Source: Thermodesulfobium acidiphilum (lineage in GTDB: Bacteria > Thermodesulfobiota > Thermodesulfobiia > Thermodesulfobiales > Thermodesulfobiaceae). From it: a DNA stretch of 64,000 nt. Each line of letters begins with the position of its first letter. Position 1 is the stretch's first letter. Location: positions 1,313,001 to 1,377,000 of the forward strand of contig NZ_CP020921.1 in NCBI RefSeq assembly GCF_003057965.1, written 5' to 3'. A program made the position numbers and the translations under genes. Positions 11,276 to 58,073 of the stretch are shown here, piece by piece. Below the pieces are notes generated by a model. That model had not been told where the DNA came from and did not search any database. It worked only from the letters and a program-made list of their open reading frames with translations.

Positions 11276-12465
11276 TATTGGTTCACCTCCTCTTTATCCC
11301 AGAAGTAGAATGGATTGGCACGTGGATGTAAGACCATCTGAGGAACAGCAGGAAGTCCTGTCGCCTTCAAGAAGCTCCTCATACCCAATCTGTAAATAAG
11401 CTCACCAACTCTTTCCCTCATTTTTCCGTTCTCGTCCCACCATTCCCAAATCTTCTCGAGGAGTTCAGAAACTTCATCATAAGGAGGCTTCATTTCCATA
11501 AATGGAACAATAACCCAGGACATAAATGCCGATTGTAGAATAGGAGCATGAGCACCAATCAATATAGTGGCACCTGTTATTTTGCCCTGTCGAAGAGCTT
11601 TTGGCATCTTATTTATACAGTTGTGGCACCTTACACAGTTGCTGTTATCGATTGAAAGAGATTTGGTTACTGGATTGTAAGAAATACACTTTGTCGGACA
11701 TTTATCAACTACCTGACCAATAATGTCAAATCCACCATTTACATAATTTATAACTTCTGTTCTGTTAATTTGAATGTTATCTTTCCAGGTACCGATAATT
11801 GAAAAGTCAGCTCTAGCTTTTGCGGCTACGCCATCGTTCGCACAGCCTGAAATCTTAATCTTAAACTTATATGGCCACATTGGTCTGTGGAGCTCATTTT
11901 GATACCTTCTTGTAAGAGTATCTACAATATCAAGCGTATCAATACACGCCCACTCACACCTGCCTGGTCCTACGCACGCACTTGGGGTTCTAAGATCTGA
12001 ACCCGATCCGCCCAAGTCCCAACCTTCATGTGCAAGGTCATCTACGACAGGCTGTAATTGATCGGTATGAGTACCAAGCAAAATAATATCGCCTGTTGCA
12101 CCGTGAAAGTTCGTCAAACCGCTTCCACGCTTCTCCCATATGTCGAGAAATTTTCTTAGCCTATCTGTTTTATAAAACCATCCAGCAGGCTGATTGATTC
12201 TCATGGTGTGAAATTCAGTCAATCCTGGAAATTTTTCAGGGACATCAGAATAACGACCGATTACTCCACCACCATAACCCGTAACACCTACAATTCCACC
12301 GTGTTTCCAGTGCGTAACCTTTTCTTCGTACGAAAGCTCTAACTGACCAAGAAGGTCATTACAAGCTTCGTTTTTTTCAGCACCTTTTTTGATCTCTTTC
12401 ACAAAGCTTGGAAATGGACCATCAAGAAGCTGATCTAGCATTGGCGTTTTTCTTAATTCTGGCAT
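11275..12465 (-). CDS. dsrA: Dissimilatory sulfite reductase alpha subunit (one siroheme-cluster Cys replaced by Gly)
   Basis: DsrA pairs with DsrB in the alpha2beta2 sulfite reductase. The 396-residue protein has the DsrA hallmarks [35 protein letters not shown] and the inserted ferredoxin domain [12 protein letters not shown]. The first cysteine pair of the siroheme-cluster site, CVGPGRC, is present. The second motif, C-x3-C in other DsrA proteins, reads [10 protein letters not shown], so the last cysteine is glycine (codon GGC on the minus strand near 11838). By analogy with assimilatory sulfite reductase this residue would bridge cluster and siroheme. The DsrA site is non-catalytic in known structures, so the enzyme may still work. 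It lies 74 bases after dsrC. Confidence 0.97.
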
Positions 12466-25777: not shown

Positions 25778-26689
25778 ATGAAGCGATTATTGGTTTCAAT
25801 TTTTCTAATACTATTCATCTTGATCTCAAAAAGTGCTTATGCAAATCAAGAGTTTTACGATCTGTTAAGTAACACGTACACAAGGTACACAAATACTGAG
25901 TCTTCAATAATAGCCTACAAGATTTTAGGCGAAAAAAATAAAAAGACTATTGTAATGCTGGAGCCTTTTTCAAGCAGCATGAACAGTTGGGATGATTCGT
26001 TGGTTATGAGCCTGCTACAAAATTTCAGACTCATCTTTATAGATTATCCGGGTATCGGACAGTCCAGGTTTCTCTCAAACAACGATCCAGATATAAGAGA
26101 GCTGGCACAAGCTGTAAAAAATGTTTTAAGGAATGAGAAGATAAAGAGCGCAAATATTCTTGGATACTCTCTGGGAGGATTTGTAGCACAACAATTCGCA
26201 AGGATGTACCCTGATATGGTAGACTCCCTCATATTAATTAGTACCAATGCAGGAGGACCTAACGCTATAAAGCCTCAAGACTATGTAGTAGATGCTCTTT
26301 TCAATCCATTGCCAGACATAGAAAAGCAGGGCGAAAGAGTTATGAAGGTGCTATTCCCAAAAGACGAAGTTGACAATTACAAAATTAAGATGGCGCTCAT
26401 ATACCAAAGATCTTCTCCAGACATTACTCCAAGAGTTTTTAACTACGAGAAACAAATTATATCTGCATGGTATCTTAGCAATGTTAACCAAGAAGAGCTT
26501 AAAGGCAAAGATTTTAAAACTCTTATACTCTCATCCGATCAAGATCTGGTAGTCCCACCCGAAAACGCATCAATACTTCACAAGATTTTACCAAACTCAA
26601 AATTAATAATTTTCAAAGGCGCAGGTCACGCTCTTATCTACCAGATGCCATCAGAAGTAGCAACAGCTATTAGAAAATTTCTTGAGTAA
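25778..26689 (+). CDS. Exported alpha/beta hydrolase
   Basis: A 303-residue alpha/beta-fold hydrolase with an N-terminal signal peptide (MKRLLVSIFLILFILISKSAYA), so it should act outside the cytoplasmic membrane. The oxyanion region is MLEPFSSSMNSWDDS. The nucleophile elbow is GYSLGG, the acid is probably Asp in SSDQDLVVPPE, and the His is in GAGHALIYQ. It resembles esterases and haloperoxidase-like hydrolases; the substrate cannot be read from sequence. Ribosome binding site GGAGGAAT precedes the ATG. The 3' end overlaps the opposing methyltransferase gene by 20 bases. Confidence 0.85.
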   Translation: MKRLLVSIFLILFILISKSAYANQEFYDLLSNTYTRYTNTESSIIAYKILGEKNKKTIVMLEPFSSSMNSWDDSLVMSLLQNFRLIFIDYPGIGQSRFLSNNDPDIRELAQAVKNVLRNEKIKSANILGYSLGGFVAQQFARMYPDMVDSLILISTNAGGPNAIKPQDYVVDALFNPLPDIEKQGERVMKVLFPKDEVDNYKIKMALIYQRSSPDITPRVFNYEKQIISAWYLSNVNQEELKGKDFKTLILSSDQDLVVPPENASILHKILPNSKLIIFKGAGHALIYQMPSEVATAIRKFLE

Positions 26690-27266
26690 ATTTTTGTACG
26701 TAAAGAATATAGCCTTCTTCATCGTCCTTTGTGTGTAGTATTGAAAATCCTTTATCCTTTGCTATCTCCTGTACGATCTCTACGGGTAAAAGCACGTGGT
26801 CTTTTACTTCTTCTTTTCTTGAATGAACCATATTTATGTGCTGTCTCGAAGAGTTATGTAATATCAAGATTTCGCCTCTATTGTCCAATAGCTTTGAAGA
26901 TTTTGTAAACACCTCCTCCAATTCCCCCAAATGCGGCAAAACATTTATCATAAGAATAAGGTCAAAAATGCCCTCTACATCGAAGAAATTCTTTATATTA
27001 ACTGTGAACCTTGCATCCTGTATTCTCTCAATAGCCCTTCTAACCATCTTTGCTGATATATCTATTGCGAACAACTTTGCATTAGATTTTAATCTTTTTA
27101 AAATATAACTAGTTTCAACTCCTGTAGCACATCCAACTTCTAGCACTCTTGTAAACGAATTCCAGTTAACAAGCTCAAGCCCCCTCTCCAAGACGTCTAT
27201 ATCTCCTCTTGAAAAGATATCGTCCCATTCATCAGACAATCGATCAAAAAAGTCTACACTATCCAT
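26670..27266 (-). CDS. Class I SAM-dependent methyltransferase
   Basis: A 198-residue methyltransferase with motif I VLEVGCATGVETSYIL, the acidic strand KLFAIDIS, and the motif IV region FDLILMINVLPHLGELEEV. It is the last gene of the cooC-like/fecBCD operon, 14 bases after the ATPase gene, and this context suggests a role linked to the imported metal chelate or its ligand. That is inference; the sequence does not give the substrate. The gene ends 20 bases inside the opposing alpha/beta hydrolase. Confidence 0.85.
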   Translation of the reverse strand: MDSVDFFDRLSDEWDDIFSRGDIDVLERGLELVNWNSFTRVLEVGCATGVETSYILKRLKSNAKLFAIDISAKMVRRAIERIQDARFTVNIKNFFDVEGIFDLILMINVLPHLGELEEVFTKSSKLLDNRGEILILHNSSRQHINMVHSRKEEVKDHVLLPVEIVQEIAKDKGFSILHTKDDEEGYILYVQKFTQEIF

Positions 27267-27280
27267 TCTACCTCCAAAAC

Positions 27281-28027
27281 TTAAAAGATTAAAAAGGGTC
27301 TGCCATCTATATTTTTAATCTTTACCATAACTCCAAAAACCTCACTAAAATTTTCTTCAGTTATAATTTCCAATCCTCCTGAGGAAAATATTTTCCCATC
27401 TTTCATCAAAATAAACTTGTCTATAAATCTAAGCGCAAGGTTTATATCATGAATGGCCATAAGAGCCGAAATTTTTTTATCCTGCACAATTTGCCTGACA
27501 ATATTCATAACTTCGATCTGACTCTTTATATCAAGATTGTTAGTCGGTTCATCCAGAAGAATTAATAAAGGCTCTTGAACCAGTGCTCTTGCAACTATCA
27601 CTTTTTGAAGCTCTCCTCCACTTAATTCATCCACAAATCTCATGGAAATTTTCTGGAGAGAGAGCATTTCTATAACACCTTTTGTAATTTCAAGGTCTTT
27701 CTTCGATATTCCCCATGTAACGTATGGTTTTCTCCCCAATAGCACTGCATCAAAAACTGTAAGTCTCGTAACCTGATTTCGCTGAGAAACATAAGAAACC
27801 TTTTTTGCAATTTCAGAACCTAATTTTTCCACATCCTGTCCTTCAATCAATATTGTCCCAAATTTTGGTTTCAAAATTCTATTTATACACTTTATCAAAG
27901 TAGACTTGCCCGCTCCGTTGTTACCAAGGATAGCTATAAGATCGCCCTTTTCTATATAAAAACTTACGTCTTTTAATACATCAACACTATTATAAGAAAA
28001 CCTTATATTCTTAGCCTGAATAAACAT
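27281..28027 (-). CDS. FecE/BtuD-type ABC transporter ATPase for metal chelate uptake
   Basis: A 248-residue ATPase of the iron-siderophore/cobalamin ABC importer family. Walker A is GNNGAGKSTL near residue 36, the signature LSGGELQKVIVARAL, and Walker B LLILLDEPTNNLD with the D-loop. The start overlaps the permease stop by one base. It energises the FecCD-type permease next to it. Ligand could be a ferric siderophore, cobalamin, haem or a nickel chelate. Confidence 0.95.
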   Translation of the reverse strand: MFIQAKNIRFSYNSVDVLKDVSFYIEKGDLIAILGNNGAGKSTLIKCINRILKPKFGTILIEGQDVEKLGSEIAKKVSYVSQRNQVTRLTVFDAVLLGRKPYVTWGISKKDLEITKGVIEMLSLQKISMRFVDELSGGELQKVIVARALVQEPLLILLDEPTNNLDIKSQIEVMNIVRQIVQDKKISALMAIHDINLALRFIDKFILMKDGKIFSSGGLEIITEENFSEVFGVMVKIKNIDGRPFLIF

Positions 28028-29076
28028 TATCTGGTCTTTCCTTTTAAATATAGAATATAAATAAAAAAGGGCGCTCCCAAAAATGATGTAATTGCTCCAA
28101 TAGGCAAAATAACAGGTGAAAAAATTGTTCTGCTGACGATATCTGCTATTATAAGCAATATTGCACCCGACAATGCACTGGCAGGCAAAATAAATCTGTA
28201 ATCAAAATCTATTATTCTTCTCATCGCCTGAGGCGCTACTAATCCAATAAAACCTATTATTCCCAAAAATGACACTATCACTGCAGTTATAAGAGAAGAT
28301 ATTATCATTGATATAAATCTTATCTTATCGACATTAATACCCAAACTCTTAGCACTTTCATCGCCTATTTCCATTGCATTATAGTTCAGACTGTTCAACA
28401 AAAAATATACAAAAGAAAAGGTTACTACAACAAACATTATCAAAATCTCATTCCAGTAAGCACGACCTACATCACCAAAAGTCCAAAAAACCATACTAGC
28501 AACTGCTACCTCATTTGAAAAATACTGAAGTATAATGATCATAGCCGAAAAGAGCGCCCCAAGAGCTACTCCCGAAAGAACTATAGACTCAGGACTAAAA
28601 CCTTTGAGTTTTGCCAGAAATATTATTGTAAAGGTAGATATAAGCGATCCAAAAAAGGCACAAGCAGTAACGAAATATGGATTATTGATTATTATATTCG
28701 ACCCAAGAGAACCTTGACCCAACATCACTATCCCCACACAAGCTCCAAATGCTGCTCCCTGAGAAACGCCCAGCGTAAAGGGTGAAGCAAGCGGATTTCT
28801 CAAAACGTTTTGCATCACACAGCCTGCTATTGAAAGCCCAACTCCAGCTACAAATGATGAGGCTATTCTTGGAAACCGCACATTAAACAAAACTGCGCCC
28901 TCTCTCGAACCCGGGTTAAAAAAGGAAAAAATAATATCTGAAAAACTAATGTTAAACGTGCCAGTCTTTGTAGAAAATATTATAAATAGCAAAGATAAAA
29001 TAAAAAGCAATATCACAATGAAAATTTTTTTCTTGTAATAACTTTTATAACTCTTCAAAATATCTTCTTTGTTCAT
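28027..29076 (-). CDS. FecCD/BtuC-type ABC transporter permease
   Basis: A 349-residue integral membrane permease of the FecCD family, with about ten hydrophobic segments. The family signatures are FNVRFPRIASSFVAGVGLSI, AGCVMQNVLRNPLASPFTLG with VSQGAAFGA, and the coupling region GFIGLVAPQAMRRI. A single permease gene is present, so it should work as a homodimer. It overlaps the binding protein gene by four bases (ATGA) and the ATPase gene by one. Confidence 0.96.
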   Translation of the reverse strand: MNKEDILKSYKSYYKKKIFIVILLFILSLLFIIFSTKTGTFNISFSDIIFSFFNPGSREGAVLFNVRFPRIASSFVAGVGLSIAGCVMQNVLRNPLASPFTLGVSQGAAFGACVGIVMLGQGSLGSNIIINNPYFVTACAFFGSLISTFTIIFLAKLKGFSPESIVLSGVALGALFSAMIIILQYFSNEVAVASMVFWTFGDVGRAYWNEILIMFVVVTFSFVYFLLNSLNYNAMEIGDESAKSLGINVDKIRFISMIISSLITAVIVSFLGIIGFIGLVAPQAMRRIIDFDYRFILPASALSGAILLIIADIVSRTIFSPVILPIGAITSFLGAPFFIYILYLKGKTR

Positions 29077-30170
29077 AAAACTTTAAAATCTATTTTTACA
29101 AATCCAGGATAATTTTTCGTAATTTCATTGAACATAGATTTTCCCAAAAATTCTTTAAATATCTCATCTGCTTTTGTATTAATATTTACGTCAGAAAATC
29201 TTTCAGGATAGATAACTTTGCCAGCAAAATAGGTGTCTATCAAGGCTATCTCTACATTTGTAGCATAATAATTAAATGGTAGCTGCCCATAGATCTTATT
29301 GTTTTTGAATGCTTTTAATTTATCATAAAATGCCCTATTTTTTTTATAGTCCTCTTTTACCAAGGGCAATCCCCCCTCGTCAAGAAATATAATATCGGGA
29401 TTTAACTTTATTAGATATTCTTTATCCAGCATCAAGCTACCAGAACCCTTTATTTCATCAGCAACGTTTTTTGCATTAATTAAAGTAAAAGGAAGATATC
29501 TTGCCTGTGTACTTTCAATCCCGTGAACACCAGCCATTCCAAGCGCTCCTACATAAACGCTAGGTTTTTTATCAGGTAAAATATCTTTTGTTCTATTCCT
29601 TAAATCTTCTTCTATACCTTTTATATAGCCGATTAGCTGATTTGCCCTATCAGATTTACCTGAAACCTCACCTATAACTCTTAAAGAGTTATATATATCA
29701 TTTATATCAAGACTAGCAAGCTGGCCATAGCTAAGCAATATTACAGGTATATTTGTCTTAGATTGAATTGCATCAGCCTGATCCTTCGTTAAATATGCAG
29801 CAAATATCACATCAGGCTTCACAGCTATGATACTTTCCAGATTGGGATTTGGACGAGGACCTCCTTGACCTATCCCTGGCAAATTTTTTAACTGTGGATA
29901 TGCAAGAATATATGGTCGTGAGGTAGCGCCCCATTCTTTTTCTGAATCCTCTACTCCTACTACTGAATCTGCGAGCTTCATATAACAGACAAGTCTGAGC
30001 GCACCTGGTCCTATTGCCACAATTCTTTTTACTGGCCTCTCTTTCAGAACAACCTTTCTTCCAAAAACATCGGTAACGGTTAAATTAGAATTATCTTCCT
30101 GGGTTAAATTATTACAACCCGAAAGAAAAAATAACGCAGTTATTAAAAAAAGTATCTTTAGAAATTTCAT
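29073..30170 (-). CDS. FecB/BtuF-type periplasmic binding lipoprotein
   Basis: A 365-residue class III substrate-binding protein. The N-terminus is a lipoprotein signal with lipobox LSGC at about residue 19. The mature chain begins with the family pattern TVTDVFGRKVVLKERPVKRIV and contains KPDVIFAAYLTKDQ and LNPDIIFLDEGG. A region GVHGIESTQARYLPF is conserved in some anaerobe relatives, as I recall. It overlaps the CooC-like gene and the permease gene by four bases each. It would deliver the chelate to the FecCD-type permease; the metal is not known. Confidence 0.94.
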   Translation of the reverse strand: MKFLKILFLITALFFLSGCNNLTQEDNSNLTVTDVFGRKVVLKERPVKRIVAIGPGALRLVCYMKLADSVVGVEDSEKEWGATSRPYILAYPQLKNLPGIGQGGPRPNPNLESIIAVKPDVIFAAYLTKDQADAIQSKTNIPVILLSYGQLASLDINDIYNSLRVIGEVSGKSDRANQLIGYIKGIEEDLRNRTKDILPDKKPSVYVGALGMAGVHGIESTQARYLPFTLINAKNVADEIKGSGSLMLDKEYLIKLNPDIIFLDEGGLPLVKEDYKKNRAFYDKLKAFKNNKIYGQLPFNYYATNVEIALIDTYFAGKVIYPERFSDVNINTKADEIFKEFLGKSMFNEITKNYPGFVKIDFKVL

Positions 30171-30925
30171 TGTAAAATTGAATTTATAAGATTTAGGTCT
30201 TCAATAGTTAGTTTTTCGCCTTTGAGATTTGCCTTTGAGATCTCTCTATTAAACGGCAAAAATCCATTTACTTTTATTTTTTTCTCAGCAAGCAGTCTCT
30301 CAAGTTCCAATTTGCTCTCATCACTAACTTTGTTCAATATTACTTTATATGGTTTGGCATGCCTTCCCTCTGAGATTAAACCTATAGTTTTCTCACAAAG
30401 CGCAATTGATTCAAAAGATGGTTCTATAACAAGCCAGACGAGATCTATAGCTTCGTGTACGCCTCTTCCAAAGTGTTCTATCCCTGCTTCAGTATCCACC
30501 AAAACATATTGATTATCCTTAACTTTTAACTTTTTTAAAAACTCCCTTGTTACTGCCCCCATTGGGCAGGCACAGCCCTCCATACCGTGTTCAATTTTAC
30601 CAGTTCGAATAAAACCTATATTGTCCTTCCATGAAGAAAACTTTTTCAAATCCTCAAATGTGAGTTCATTTATAAACATTGGAGTTTTTTCTTTCCCCTC
30701 AGATTTTAAAAAAGATAGAAGAGCTTTCTTTACCTCAGCCTTACCACCAAGATATCCCATTAAGGTTTTTTCAGAATCGATCCCAAGCATGTTTGAAAGA
30801 CAAAGATTTGATTCATCAGCATCCAATACAAAAACCTCGCCCCTTTTTGAAAGGGTGTTAGCAGCAATTGCTGTAAGGGTACTCTTTCCGCATCCGCCTC
30901 TTCCGCAAACTAAAATCTTCGGCAT
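30167..30925 (-). CDS. CooC-like P-loop ATPase (nickel-insertion factor family)
   Basis: A 252-residue MinD/CooC-type ATPase. It begins MPKILVCGRGGCGKSTL, a deviant Walker A. A CxC pair occurs in EGCACPMGAV; CooC of Carboxydothermus has a CxC that binds metal at the dimer interface. YVLVDTEAGIEHFGRGV is the Walker B/switch region. I chose ATG 30925 because AGGAGG lies nine bases upstream; a longer frame to 31000 reads through the leader hairpin and has no ribosome binding site. It opens the fecBCD-like operon. CooC proteins mature nickel carbon monoxide dehydrogenase, hence the nickel hypothesis. Confidence 0.85.
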   Translation of the reverse strand: MPKILVCGRGGCGKSTLTAIAANTLSKRGEVFVLDADESNLCLSNMLGIDSEKTLMGYLGGKAEVKKALLSFLKSEGKEKTPMFINELTFEDLKKFSSWKDNIGFIRTGKIEHGMEGCACPMGAVTREFLKKLKVKDNQYVLVDTEAGIEHFGRGVHEAIDLVWLVIEPSFESIALCEKTIGLISEGRHAKPYKVILNKVSDESKLELERLLAEKKIKVNGFLPFNREISKANLKGEKLTIEDLNLINSILQ

Positions 30926-30950
30926 AATTAATAAACCTCCTAAATAAGAT

Positions 30951-31005
30951 AAGCCATAAAGGCTAATAACACAAGTTGTTGTGCATATAACAGCCTTCAT
31001 GGCTT
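30951..31005 (-). promoter_or_regulatory. Repeated leader hairpin, copy A, before the CooC-like/fecBCD operon
   Basis: On the minus strand AAGCCATGAAGGCT pairs with AGCCTTTATGGCTT over 14 positions, one being G-U in RNA. Between the arms a second hairpin, CACAA-CAAC-TTGTG (30970-30983), is possible. Nine bases (ATCTTATTT) separate the stem from the Shine-Dalgarno AGGAGG. Copies B (52708-52738) and C (58006-58050) share arms and spacing. Confidence 0.8.
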
Positions 31006-31167
31006 CTAAAAAGAGTTCTACTCTTTGTTTTTTTATTATACAATAAGTTCTAATTTTATAATAATTTTGAATACTATAGTAAGGTTTAAAGTGTAATTAT
31101 GAGATAATAATTCCTTAATAAAGGACCGGTTTTTTAAAATTTTAATATTCAATTCGGAGGTAAAAAA

Positions 31168-52633: not shown

Positions 52634-52707
52634 AATAAAATTAAAATTCTATTAGAAAATGTCCTAAATGAATTAGGGCGCTTTTAAATTTATTAAATTT
52701 AGCATTA

Positions 52708-52738
52708 AAGCCATGAAGGCTTTTTGTCTTCATGGCTT
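52708..52738 (+). promoter_or_regulatory. Repeated leader hairpin, copy B, before the TonB receptor
   Basis: AAGCCATGAAG and CTTCATGGCTT form a perfect 11-pair stem with a nine-base loop (GCTTTTTGT). ATTTTTTT follows, then AAGGGAGG. It has the shape of an intrinsic terminator placed just before the Shine-Dalgarno. The inner hairpin seen in copies A and C is not present. Confidence 0.8.
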
Positions 52739-52764
52739 ATTTTTTTAAGGGAGGTAGAGGATAT

Positions 52765-54852
52765 TTGATTATTGTGTTAGTTTTTTTGTTTTTTGCTTTT
52801 TTTTATTCAGATTTGGCAGAAATTGGATTTTGTGATGACTCTTCTCAGTTTCAGGAGATTGTAGTCTACGGTAACAAGGAAAAAGAGAAAAATGCAGATG
52901 TGGTAAACGTATTCAAAGTAAACCCCGCTATGAGTTTTTCTATTACTGATTACCTCAAGGATATGGCAGGGGTAGAGATCTCAGAAAAATCACTTGTAGG
53001 AGACACGGGCGATGTGGTTAAGATCAGAGGTTTTGGGAATAGCAGATTGAAAGTATTCGAGAATGGAAGAGATATCAATGCCACAGGCGTTTATGGCGGC
53101 TTTTATGTGGACTGGAGCACCATACCGCCAATAAACGTTGACTCTATTAAGGTTATAAAAAGCGGCGTAGACGCTAAACTTGGAGTTTTAGGCGGCGCAA
53201 TAGAGATTAAGAATAGAGTCCCGACTGGCACGCCAATAACAGAATTTTTTGGTTCATATGGGACTAGGGATACTCAAAATTACAGGTTTTATTTTGAAAA
53301 CAAGATAAAGGATATACCCTTTAATATATCTATCGATCATCTCTCTTCTGACCCATTTTTACGAAACAATGATTTTCTATCAAACTCGTTTAACTTTTCC
53401 ACGGTCATTCCAAACGTTTTCGATGGTAAAATCAATGTCTCAGCTTATTATACAAAAGTAAAAAGAGGCCTTATAGTAAATAATAGAAAATCAAATGATC
53501 CTCAAAGCCCACTGTGGAATGTACCCATTGATCCATCATATCCCACATCACTTGGAGAATTTATGCCTCCTGGCGGAGGACCTACAAGAACGCCTGTAAT
53601 GGGTGCGTACTGGCAAAAGGAAAAAACTCTTCTGGATCTGTCGTATGAACGAAAAATATTTGGATGGAATGCGAAGATTGCAGGCTTTACAAATAGGGAA
53701 GAAAGATACGAGGTAAATCCTGGGCTTCTTATAAGAGATCTAAAGCCTGATAAGACCGATGGATTCTATATGGATTTTAGCAAGGATTTTTCAAAGCACC
53801 ACGTGAGATTTGGCTATTACTTTAAAAATCAAGGCTCAGGGGACACATTTATAATTTATGAAAAAACAAACCCTCCCACTTACAATCAAAATAGCCCATC
53901 GAGCCAGAAGATAATTTACAATTCAGCATATCTTGATGACAGATTTAAGATATCAAAGAGATCATCTCTTTATATGGGCGTAAGATACGATAGCTTTCAC
54001 GCAGAGGGAGCACCCATATTGCAGGATGGAAGAGGAACTTATGTTCAGGGTATATCTCTAACTGGCGATGCGATCACCCCAAGAATAAGCTTAGACTACG
54101 AGCTAACTAAAAACGATACTGCAACTCTTTCAGTATTCAAATCTGCAAGGATGCCTACCAACCCTGAATACTATTGGTGGATCACAGGTTATAGCGGAGC
54201 AAAGCTCGCAAATGGTGCACCCGCTCCCGGTTATAGGCCAGTAAACTATCTTTTAAAGCCAGAAAAGGAGGACGCAGTAGAACTTAGCATTAAAGGAAAA
54301 AGGCTCGGAGTTGACTACTCTATTAATGGCTATTATTATTCTATTCACGACTATATTATGTTTAGAATTGATCCAAATCCTACAAACAGAGTGGCTTACA
54401 ACGTAGATGAAGTAAATATATATGGAGCTGAAACAACGCTTAAAAAGAGAATAAAGGGCATTGATACGGTACTAACTTATACTTATCAGAAAAGCACAAA
54501 GGTTAACGACGCGCTTGACACCCAGCATCTGTTAAACGGTTTGGACTATTTTCCAAGAAGCATGGCGAATCTGACCTTTCAGAAAAAGTTTGATAACGGC
54601 TTGATTTTAGATTTTGACAATCACTACGTATCAAAGCAAAATTTGCTCTATGCACCAAATAGCAGTAAGCTTGAGCTTGTTTCGATAAAGCCATATTATA
54701 CTGCAGACCTTGGGATATCATACCTTGTACCAAAACACGACCTGAGGATGGATCTGATGATCTATGACATTTTTAATAAAAAGTATCAAGAGGTATTTGG
54801 GTATCCCATGCCAGGAAGAAGCGTATTTGGGTCTCTCACTCTAACTTTTTAA
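52765..54852 (+). CDS. TonB-dependent outer membrane receptor
   Basis: A TonB-dependent receptor of about 695 residues that should import a metal chelate or cofactor. A TonB box (EIVVYGNKE) is followed by the plug domain (DYLKDMAGVEISEKSLVG, VKIRGFGNSRLKVFENGRDI, IKVIKSGVDAKLGVLGGA). A beta-barrel follows and ends in GSLTLTF with terminal Phe. The start is uncertain. TTG 52765 follows GGGAGG and parallels copies A and C of the leader hairpin. An in-frame ATG at 52732 lies inside the hairpin and would add 11 residues with basic K and R, favouring a better signal peptide. The ligand is not known. Confidence 0.92.
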   Translation: MIIVLVFLFFAFFYSDLAEIGFCDDSSQFQEIVVYGNKEKEKNADVVNVFKVNPAMSFSITDYLKDMAGVEISEKSLVGDTGDVVKIRGFGNSRLKVFENGRDINATGVYGGFYVDWSTIPPINVDSIKVIKSGVDAKLGVLGGAIEIKNRVPTGTPITEFFGSYGTRDTQNYRFYFENKIKDIPFNISIDHLSSDPFLRNNDFLSNSFNFSTVIPNVFDGKINVSAYYTKVKRGLIVNNRKSNDPQSPLWNVPIDPSYPTSLGEFMPPGGGPTRTPVMGAYWQKEKTLLDLSYERKIFGWNAKIAGFTNREERYEVNPGLLIRDLKPDKTDGFYMDFSKDFSKHHVRFGYYFKNQGSGDTFIIYEKTNPPTYNQNSPSSQKIIYNSAYLDDRFKISKRSSLYMGVRYDSFHAEGAPILQDGRGTYVQGISLTGDAITPRISLDYELTKNDTATLSVFKSARMPTNPEYYWWITGYSGAKLANGAPAPGYRPVNYLLKPEKEDAVELSIKGKRLGVDYSINGYYYSIHDYIMFRIDPNPTNRVAYNVDEVNIYGAETTLKKRIKGIDTVLTYTYQKSTKVNDALDTQHLLNGLDYFPRSMANLTFQKKFDNGLILDFDNHYVSKQNLLYAPNSSKLELVSIKPYYTADLGISYLVPKHDLRMDLMIYDIFNKKYQEVFGYPMPGRSVFGSLTLTF

Positions 54853-56466: not shown

Positions 56467-57144
56467 CTAATCTTCTAACACAAATCTAATAGGTAAAATT
56501 GCCCTTGATTTAACAAATGCTCCGTTTTCTATAGCCGCCCTAAAAGTTGATTGTTTTACAGCATTTATTGCAGCCTGAGCAAAATCATCATTTGTGCTAT
56601 TTAGCACCCTAACACTTATAAGTCGACCATTTTCGTCAATTAATAACTCTAATACTACTTTACCTTCGATTCCCAGTCTTTTTTCTCTTAGGGGATATTC
56701 AGGAATTACCCTCTTTATAAATTTTGGACCATCTGATGAATCAAATGTTTTCGAATATATCTTATTGTTGCTTTCTCTTGGAGAGCCATCCTTAATCCCT
56801 CTATCCATTTTTTCATTGTTTGAAAAGCCAGTGTTAACTTGACGTGAAATATCTACAGCCGAAATTTGAGAGGTAACTAAATTATTTATATTTACAGCTT
56901 GTGTACTATTAGAAACCTTTTGAAGATTTGGCTCGGTTACATTTTTCTCTAAAGTTTTGCTGCTATTATCTTTACTACTTTTTTTATTTACAGCTTTTTG
57001 ATTTTCTTGAAGAGAATTTAGACTCATAATAAATATCGGTTCACTCTTTATAACGTTAGTAGCTCCCACTAGAAAAACAGTGCCAAAGAGTAATAAGTGA
57101 AATACTATGGAAAAAACAAAACTAAGAGAAAGTCTTCTGTTCAA
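56467..57144 (-). CDS. tonB: TonB energy-transducing protein
   Basis: A 225-residue TonB. It has an N-terminal membrane helix (LSFVFSIVFHLLLFGTVFLV), a polar, Asn/Ser/Lys-rich middle instead of the classic Pro-rich spacer, and a C-terminal domain with YPLREKRLGIEGKVVLELLI, DENGRLISVRVLNST and ILPIRFVLED. It brings proton motive force from ExbBD to the outer-membrane receptor. It overlaps exbD by four bases. Confidence 0.94.
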   Translation of the reverse strand: MNRRLSLSFVFSIVFHLLLFGTVFLVGATNVIKSEPIFIMSLNSLQENQKAVNKKSSKDNSSKTLEKNVTEPNLQKVSNSTQAVNINNLVTSQISAVDISRQVNTGFSNNEKMDRGIKDGSPRESNNKIYSKTFDSSDGPKFIKRVIPEYPLREKRLGIEGKVVLELLIDENGRLISVRVLNSTNDDFAQAAINAVKQSTFRAAIENGAFVKSRAILPIRFVLED

Positions 57145-57551
57145 ATCCTTTCGTCCTTAAGCGTTTCTATGTTGTATCTTTCTATCCCAGCAGCCCTACA
57201 CGCATCAATAGCCTTTACAACATAGCCAAACTGAGTATTTTTGTCAGCACGAATTTTTATTATTATATTTGGGTTATTTGCCTTAAGAGTTCTTAGCGTT
57301 TCAGTAATCAATTTTGGGTCAGTTTTATCTTCATTTATAAACATCGTCCCATCACTTTTTATGGTAAGCGGGATATCCTTAAGCTCTTCCTTTATAACTG
57401 CAGTCTTAGCCTGTGGCAAATCAATCGGGATGGCCCCCTGGGCTATCAGGGTAGCAGTAACCAAGAATATTATAAGTATGACCAAAACCACATCTACCAA
57501 TGGGACAACGTTTATTTCTGCTATTTCGTCGTCATGATTTGGGTTGTGCAT
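57141..57551 (-). CDS. exbD: ExbD/TolR-family biopolymer transport protein
   Basis: A 136-residue ExbD. It has one N-terminal membrane helix with the functional Asp in INVVPLVDVVLVILIIFLV and a periplasmic domain (IPIDLPQAKTAV, then IIIKIRADKNTQFGYVVKAID). It overlaps exbB by 20 bases and tonB by four, so all three are coupled. Confidence 0.95.
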   Translation of the reverse strand: MHNPNHDDEIAEINVVPLVDVVLVILIIFLVTATLIAQGAIPIDLPQAKTAVIKEELKDIPLTIKSDGTMFINEDKTDPKLITETLRTLKANNPNIIIKIRADKNTQFGYVVKAIDACRAAGIERYNIETLKDERI

Positions 57552-57987
57552 TATTTATATGCTCCTCATATGCATAGCTCAAATCTCTTGCTTTTCTAAC
57601 AAAATAGTTGTATGCAATTACACATGGCACAGCAACAAATAGCCCCAGTGCAGTAGAGCTAAGCGCCTCTGCAATGCCATTCATCACCACTCTTACTCCA
57701 AAATCTTGCGAAATGGCAAGATCGTGAAATGCCTTCATAATTCCAAGAACTGTGCCAAATAGACCGATAAAAGGTGCATTACTGCCAACAGTTGCAAAAA
57801 AACCAAGCCTTTTGTTAAGAATCGATCTTAGATCAGAAGGAGTATAACTAAAGAGTTCCTTTTCAATTTTTCGCATAAAAAATATTTTTTCGAAAATAAA
57901 AGCAACAGATATAACGCTTAAAATTATTAAGAGCACTAAAACAGGATCCCCACCTACCATTGCAAGATTTAATATTAACTTTGCCAT
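57532..57987 (-). CDS. exbB: ExbB/TolQ-family proton channel protein
   Basis: A 151-residue ExbB with three membrane helices. The family core is TVGSNAPFIGLFGTVLGIMK followed by AEALSSTALGLFVAVPCVIAYN. I chose ATG 57987, four bases after AGGAGG, since the frame is open to 58026 but the extra residues come from the leader element. It opens the exbB-exbD-tonB-trmO operon behind hairpin copy C. Confidence 0.94.
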   Translation of the reverse strand: MAKLILNLAMVGGDPVLVLLIILSVISVAFIFEKIFFMRKIEKELFSYTPSDLRSILNKRLGFFATVGSNAPFIGLFGTVLGIMKAFHDLAISQDFGVRVVMNGIAEALSSTALGLFVAVPCVIAYNYFVRKARDLSYAYEEHINNAQPKS

Positions 57988-58005
57988 AATTCCTCCTAAA
58001 AAAAT

Positions 58006-58050
58006 AAGCCATAGAAAGATGTGCAATTTTTACACAAACCTTCATGGCTT
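58006..58050 (-). promoter_or_regulatory. Repeated leader hairpin, copy C, before exbB-exbD-tonB
   Basis: On the minus strand AAGCCATGAAGG pairs with CTTTCTATGGCTT as a 12-pair stem with one bulged U. The inner segment TGTGT...GCACA (58020-58036) can form a second hairpin, as in copy A but with the arms swapped. ATTTTTTT (8 bases) separates the stem from AGGAGG. Confidence 0.78.
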
Positions 58051-58073
58051 TATCCTAATACTTTAATTTTATA

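Follow-up and report, generated by a model that had tools for sequence, protein, structure and literature searches.

What does a relative of CooC, the maturase of carbon monoxide dehydrogenase (CODH), do at the head of a metal-chelate import operon? The question is raised by a 64,000-nucleotide stretch of the Thermodesulfobium acidiphilum genome (contig NZ_CP020921.1, positions 1,313,001 to 1,377,000 of the forward strand; hereafter the window), where a minus-strand operon of five genes (26670–30925) begins with a gene for a CooC-like ATPase. How nickel complexes enter anaerobes and are passed onward inside the cell is, to our knowledge, poorly known. The initial annotation took the locus for a system that scavenges nickel (or another metal), is co-regulated with TonB parts, and hands metal straight to a maturation factor, CooC proteins being loaders of nickel into CODH. 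We find it quite probable that the operon imports a nickel complex and that nickel is passed to the CooC-like ATPase, with a hairpin leader, shared by the other nickel-uptake genes, in the place of the nickel repressor NikR; CODH as the specific recipient is not supported by the analysis. The genes of the operon are, in order of transcription:

30167–30925, minus strand: CooC-like SIMIBI ATPase, 252 aa, with GRGGCGKST, DADESN, and CAC motifs (Pfam/NCBIfam, match to PDB 3kje)
29073–30170, minus strand: Peripla_BP_2 lipoprotein substrate-binding protein of the TM0189/2etv family (Pfam, 2etv match, predicted fold)
28027–29076, minus strand: FecCD/BtuC-type permease (Pfam, NCBIfam)
27281–28027, minus strand: FecE/BtuD-type ATP-binding cassette (ABC) ATPase (Pfam, NCBIfam)
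26670–27266, minus strand: class I S-adenosylmethionine (SAM)-dependent methyltransferase, 198 aa (Pfam, NCBIfam)

The Pfam and NCBIfam assignments agree for these proteins, and a Peripla_BP_2 protein, a FecCD permease, and a matching ATPase within one operon identify the importer as FecBCD/BtuFCD-type (type II). Successive genes overlap by 4, 4, and 1 nt, and the methyltransferase gene follows after a gap of 14 nt. The order is not due to chance, since the three further genomes of the genus have it too, although a contig edge truncates the operon in one of them. The five genes thus stand as first described, with the CooC-like gene in front and the methyltransferase at the far end, and the CxC motif noted in the CooC-like protein is real (EGCACP). 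The open reading frame (ORF) of 277 aa starting at 31000 is too long for the CooC-like gene. We place its start at ATG 30925 (252 aa, MPKILVCGRGG), because a Shine-Dalgarno sequence (GGAGG) lies just 5′ of this codon and because stop codons interrupt the region before it in two relatives; the extra part of the ORF is a hairpin leader.

This leader connects the operon to other transcription units. Its invariant 5′ arm, AGCCATGAAGG, occurs in a hairpin near the 5′ ends of three transcripts in the window, namely those of the CooC operon, a TonB-dependent receptor, and exbB-exbD-tonB. Folding z-scores of the leaders range from −4 to −6, and E-values of matches to the leader model are rough:

30936–31008, minus strand: CooC-operon leader hairpin (AGCCATGAAGG...CCTTTATGGCTT), immediately 5′ of the Shine-Dalgarno sequence (z −5.8; 62.8 bits, E 6e-12)
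52705–52753, plus strand: leader hairpin upstream of the TonB-dependent receptor (model match E 2.6e-11)
52765–54852, plus strand: TonB-dependent receptor, with a probable TTG start at 52765, the listed ATG at 52732 lying inside the leader
57991–58053, minus strand: leader hairpin upstream of exbB-exbD-tonB (model match E 7e-10)
56467–57987, minus strand: exbB-exbD-tonB unit (exbB start ~57987; exbD 57141–57551; tonB 56467–57144)

The same leader on all three units confirms the suspected co-regulation of the TonB parts: receptor and ExbB/ExbD/TonB stand under the control element of the importer, as would be fitting for TonB-dependent uptake of what is presumably nickel. In another genome of the genus (G003, locus L055), TonB parts directly adjoin the CooC operon. 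Because of a conserved ATG inside the hairpin, ORF callers start the genes for the CooC-like protein, the receptor, and ExbB too early, within the leader (window positions 30953–31005, 52732, and 57988–58026), and short reading frames with an MK(A/V) start begin at this codon. A second small palindrome, AAAGAGTAGAACTCTTT (~31010–31030), is kept in the genus and occurs only before the CooC-operon leader.

The evidence for nickel comes from the genes that carry the leader and from the control of related operons elsewhere. A model built from the window leaders found further copies in the genus, one before an operon of CbiM-PDGLE, CbiQ, and CbiO (His-rich tail) (G000:C1:765925–765989, L179), and another before an [FeFe]-hydrogenase operon in G001 (G001:C1:1572361–1572429, L181). 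With a strict pattern, the genome of the window has exactly four copies (CooC operon, receptor, exbBD-tonB, and CbiM-PDGLE/CbiQ/CbiO), and the reversed control gives 0. Genome-wide statements here rest on searches of the contigs of a set of 386 genomes, and loci derived from metagenome-assembled genomes may be incomplete. Four other genomes in this set have the leader. It precedes porin, NikM, NikN, CbiQ, NikO and also methyltransferase, TonB, ExbB, ExbD in G263; porin, CbiM-PDGLE, CbiQ, CbiO, HypC, HypD and an apparent HypE in G278; a repeat protein, ExbB, ExbD, TonB in G238; and several TonB receptors in G267, among them one accompanied by a Peripla_BP_2 protein and another by DUF4198. The matches in G263 (second copy), G278, G238, and G267 (C122) are independent of model building. 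The copies outside the genus lie at L208 643–716, L209 1526–1598, L195 2597–2657, and L210 1101–1153, and in L191, L194, and L211; at L142 (229–295), a locus that also carries a CooC-like gene, a variant of the leader stands before FmdE.

NikR regulons have been reported to comprise nikMQO and an Fe-only hydrogenase (PMC545781). The content of the leader regulon matches this, and searches of three genomes of the genus (G000, G001, and G003) revealed no NikR. The leader hairpin seems to take over the task of NikR in other lineages.

Two kinds of protein recur in these regulons. The first gene of leader-linked Nik operons (L208 769–1533, L209 1611–2414) encodes an outer-membrane protein of Phenol_MetA_deg type, which has HPLITDDTGTQGKGKFQLE close to its start and is a possible nickel porin. 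A secreted acidic protein with D-x-N/D-x-D repeats, possibly binding metal at the surface, occurs before ExbB-ExbD-TonB or behind the leader (L192 2120, L193 2948, L210 1132, L138 3–1106); the two tested had no Pfam match.

Operons homologous to that of the window have features that point to NikR control. We counted as NikR boxes matches to the delta-proteobacterial consensus GTGTTAC-N13/14-GTAACAC (PMC545781) or its reversed form, and found 13 in the 1.12 Mb scanned, against 3–5 in simulated sequence. Boxes lie 15–120 bp upstream of the first gene at L057, L062 (two), L065 (a perfect reversed site), L078, L131, and L151 (two), and looser sites occur at L058, L061, and L126. A nikR gene adjoins the operon in G237 and is also present in G081, G177, and G378. 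The nearest relatives of the window receptor are the receptors of L061 and L062, which belong to NikR-box operons. The one NikR-type site that a scan of the window gave, at 12281, was rejected as remote from the transcription units considered here. In Methanosarcinaceae, NikR-type sites before flavin reductase-FmdE genes (L083 ~7026, L092 ~7029) suggest that these genes, too, belong to nickel regulons. The boxes and nikR genes at relatives' operons, together with a leader shared with nickel-related genes, give the proposal of nickel scavenging good support.

Several observations weigh against this reading. The promoter of the window CooC operon has no NikR box, so nickel control of this operon rests on the leader regulon, and the CbiM-PDGLE transporter in that regulon could carry cobalt. 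The binding protein matches PDB 2etv (E 1.9e-103), and its predicted fold superimposes on it with a TM-score of 0.93, but the Fe(III) in the name of 2etv is annotation only and the fold is common to binders of iron, haem, and molybdate. We found no ligand, binding, or transport data for close homologues of the binding protein. Finally, the methyltransferases of related operons belong to several different subfamilies, which leaves a common role for them unproven.

Could the cargo then be a complex of iron, molybdate, or cobalt? The further fold matches of the binding protein include molybdate-binding MolA (3psa) and iron-binding YiuA, and FmdE, whose name comes from a molybdenum operon, is found nearby more than once. 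The same list contains the Ni-His complex of Helicobacter pylori CeuE (4ls3), so that this fold is able to carry nickel; since the matches span several cargoes, the cargo cannot be read from the fold by itself, and the regulatory evidence favours nickel. We regard another metal as improbable. An importer of cobalamin or another corrinoid (BtuFCD type) with accessory enzymes would explain why the permease scores best with BtuC in NCBIfam, why a CbiM homologue stands in the leader regulon, and why, in G267, one of the receptors linked to the leader has a tetrapyrrole methylase behind it. It is difficult to reconcile with NikR boxes or nikR at relatives and with leaders before hypCDE and [FeFe]-hydrogenase. 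Rfam scans of the window and the related loci tested returned only tRNAs and no riboswitch; cobalamin riboswitch control is common, though not universal. A corrinoid cargo is, in our judgment, highly improbable, and a nickel complex remains the preferred cargo.

Whether the leader acts as RNA is a question separate from the cargo. Its arms also form an inverted DNA repeat and its hairpins have U-runs as in intrinsic terminators (weak at the CooC leader), so that it might be a DNA operator for a repressor or a set of recurrent terminators rather than a regulatory RNA. The leader model does match ordinary terminators: a match after atpG in G065 was set aside as a likely one, as was G000:585060, before a porin and beside a tRNA end. 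Pattern matches in G264, G315, and G365 had no matching stem and were taken as chance. The loop between the arms, on the other hand, ranges from 5 to >30 nt, and the sequence of the 5′ arm does not vary, a constancy that an ordinary terminator would not require. In the alignment of 23 leaders, 97.5% of cells are paired, compared with 25–57% when the partner is slid, and both sides have changed in 6 cells, a level reached by no shuffle. Compensatory changes occur at two pairs. Watson-Crick pairing is lacking in 40 cells, of which 33 hold G-U wobbles and 7 other combinations, where a G-U share of 1 in 6 is expected, and this dominance of wobbles points to selection at the RNA level; since the rows are related rather than independent, the p-value of this comparison serves as a guide only. 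We consider a DNA operator or plain terminators rather unlikely.

We regard the leader as a candidate for a new nickel-responsive RNA element. Its 5′ arm can instead take part in a second, smaller hairpin, GCC-AYGAA-GGY, which can form in 23 of the 23 leaders, without separate covariation support of its own. The U-run, the position near the transcript start, and this alternative hairpin together suggest an attenuator, which nickel, a protein, or another signal might switch. A broader proposal, to which we would give even chances, is that of a novel class of leader RNAs that respond to nickel: a 5′-terminal attenuator with the invariant arm GCCAYGAAGG and the competing hairpin, which would control whole nickel regulons across several bacterial lineages and replace NikR. 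Such regulons would take in NikMNQO, TonB/Exb, receptors, FecBCD-CooC, hypCDE, and [FeFe]-hydrogenase. The scans gave the leader no match to a curated family of Rfam 15 above its threshold, and a permissive scan of one leader gave only matches at chance level.

The remaining part of the question concerns the destination of the metal. The best solved relative of the CooC-like protein is ChCooC1 (PDB 3kje, E 4.6e-19), and the protein has the SIMIBI ATPase fold with a deviant Walker A region (GRGGCGKST, with Arg at the signature Lys position). Together with the CxC motif and a CODH in the genome, this could make it a second CODH maturase with an importer of its own. The single CODH catalytic subunit of the genome, however, has a CooC gene of its own, which lies immediately upstream. 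A tree of 96 proteins places the window protein among 84 that form one clade, separated from 12 CODH-type proteins by a long branch with 100/100 support, although the tree tool cautions that the placement of some long branches may be wrong. Walker A of the window clade reads GKS, versus mostly GKT in CODH types, and the clade has a DxDESN motif; counts of DESN and CxC in the wider clade are partly built in by the search patterns. A search for co-occurrence with CODH genes found neither CooS nor CdhA near the CooC-like gene at any of 79 genome loci of the clade. Genome G081 (99% complete) carries the cluster of CooC-like gene, binding protein, permease, and ATPase and has no CODH, nor a hybrid-cluster protein.

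These observations leave delivery to the CODH maturation factor unsupported, and a dedicated CODH route appears most improbable. Judged from sequence, the CooC-like protein does not appear to be the CODH maturase. In our preferred reading, it is plausible that nickel is handed to a putative CooC-like chaperone for the nickel enzymes of the cell in general. [NiFe]-hydrogenase families match in 10 of 10 genomes checked, including the CODH-free G081, although relatives that resemble complex I can give such matches. Three genomes of the genus share a NiFeSe_Hases match that contains a single in-frame TGA, a candidate selenocysteine codon or a sign of a broken gene (G000:C1:574771–574977, G001:C1:618452, and G003:C3:108265).

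The gene neighbourhood of the CooC-like clade is conserved well beyond the genus. Seven archaeal loci hold a set of CooC, binding protein, PF00891-type methyltransferase, permease, and ATPase (L075 ends at a contig edge, and the methyltransferase of L151 was not called), and Bathyarchaeota, Thermoplasmatota, and Methanomassiliicoccales keep the order CooC, binding protein, methyltransferase, permease, ATPase. The neighbours of these CooC-like genes in Methanosarcinales are importers of FecBCD or Opp/Nik type and methyltransferases of a different family. An importer lies within 4.5 kb of the CooC-like gene at 33 of the 79 loci, many of which end at contig edges, and both an importer and a methyltransferase at 25. 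Comparing the numbers of importer genes inside and outside this distance of 4.5 kb was uninformative, as extended transport operons occupy the outer flanks. Relatives of the binding protein likewise share their operons with TonB receptors, FmdE, methyltransferases, and CooC-like genes. The recurring methyltransferases likely perform a chemical step, as their repeated presence suggests; a single-sequence fold prediction for the window enzyme reached a mean predicted local distance difference test score (pLDDT) of only 37. In G081, a TrmO-like gene (PF01980; L058 6257–6700) heads the operon of CooC, binding protein, permease, and ATPase, and TrmO-like genes recur beside CooC-like genes in Methanotrichaceae. 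The viral contigs scanned with the CooC-like protein gave no match.

In the pathway that we propose, the TonB receptor, energized by ExbB/ExbD/TonB, would carry a nickel chelate over the outer membrane, and the lipoprotein binding protein and FecCD-type ABC transporter would move it to the cytoplasm. The methyltransferase would probably alter or make the chelator. The CooC-like ATPase could take the released Ni(II) through its CxC motif and deliver it to nickel enzymes generally ([NiFe]-hydrogenases and CODH), not to CODH alone. One 5′-leader hairpin with a terminator-like U-run would control all these units and the CbiM/NikM-type energy-coupling factor (ECF) transporter, in NikR's role.

The operon is probably a previously undescribed variant of TonB/FecBCD-type nickel import. 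We found no description of this gene combination or of a nickel leader RNA in the open-licence literature; the papers found there describe nickel control through NikR, and such a leader is absent from those searched. A separate CooC-like clade, widespread in methanogens, anaerobic methanotrophic (ANME) archaea, and sulfate reducers, is tied to nickel import instead of CODH, and many genes named "CODH accessory protein CooC" are therefore probably misnamed. For bacteria that lack NikR, the leader provides a candidate RNA element of nickel control that can be put to the test.

Among known systems, the closest in design is the TonB-dependent nickel uptake of Helicobacter mustelae and H. pylori, which uses NikH or FecA3/FrpB4, FecDE, and CeuE (literature cited in PMC11247825). 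Both combine a TonB receptor with a FecBCD-type importer proposed for nickel, with the CeuE Ni-His structure as a precedent, but control there is by NikR, whereas here a leader hairpin is present and NikR was not found. The Helicobacter operon is not known to contain a CooC-like ATPase or methyltransferase. Thermotoga maritima TM0189 (2etv), compared by sequence and fold only, is ~47% identical to the window binding protein and has nearly the same fold. The window ATPase resembles ChCooC1 in fold, deviant Walker A region, and CxC motif, and differs from CooC in its separate clade, DxDESN motif, GKS for GKT, the change of the signature Lys to Arg in the genus, and its absence from the side of CODH in all loci examined. 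As in the delta-proteobacterial NikR regulons (PMC545781), a nickel transporter and an Fe-only hydrogenase stand under one control, which in this case is a leader hairpin in a genus where NikR was not found.

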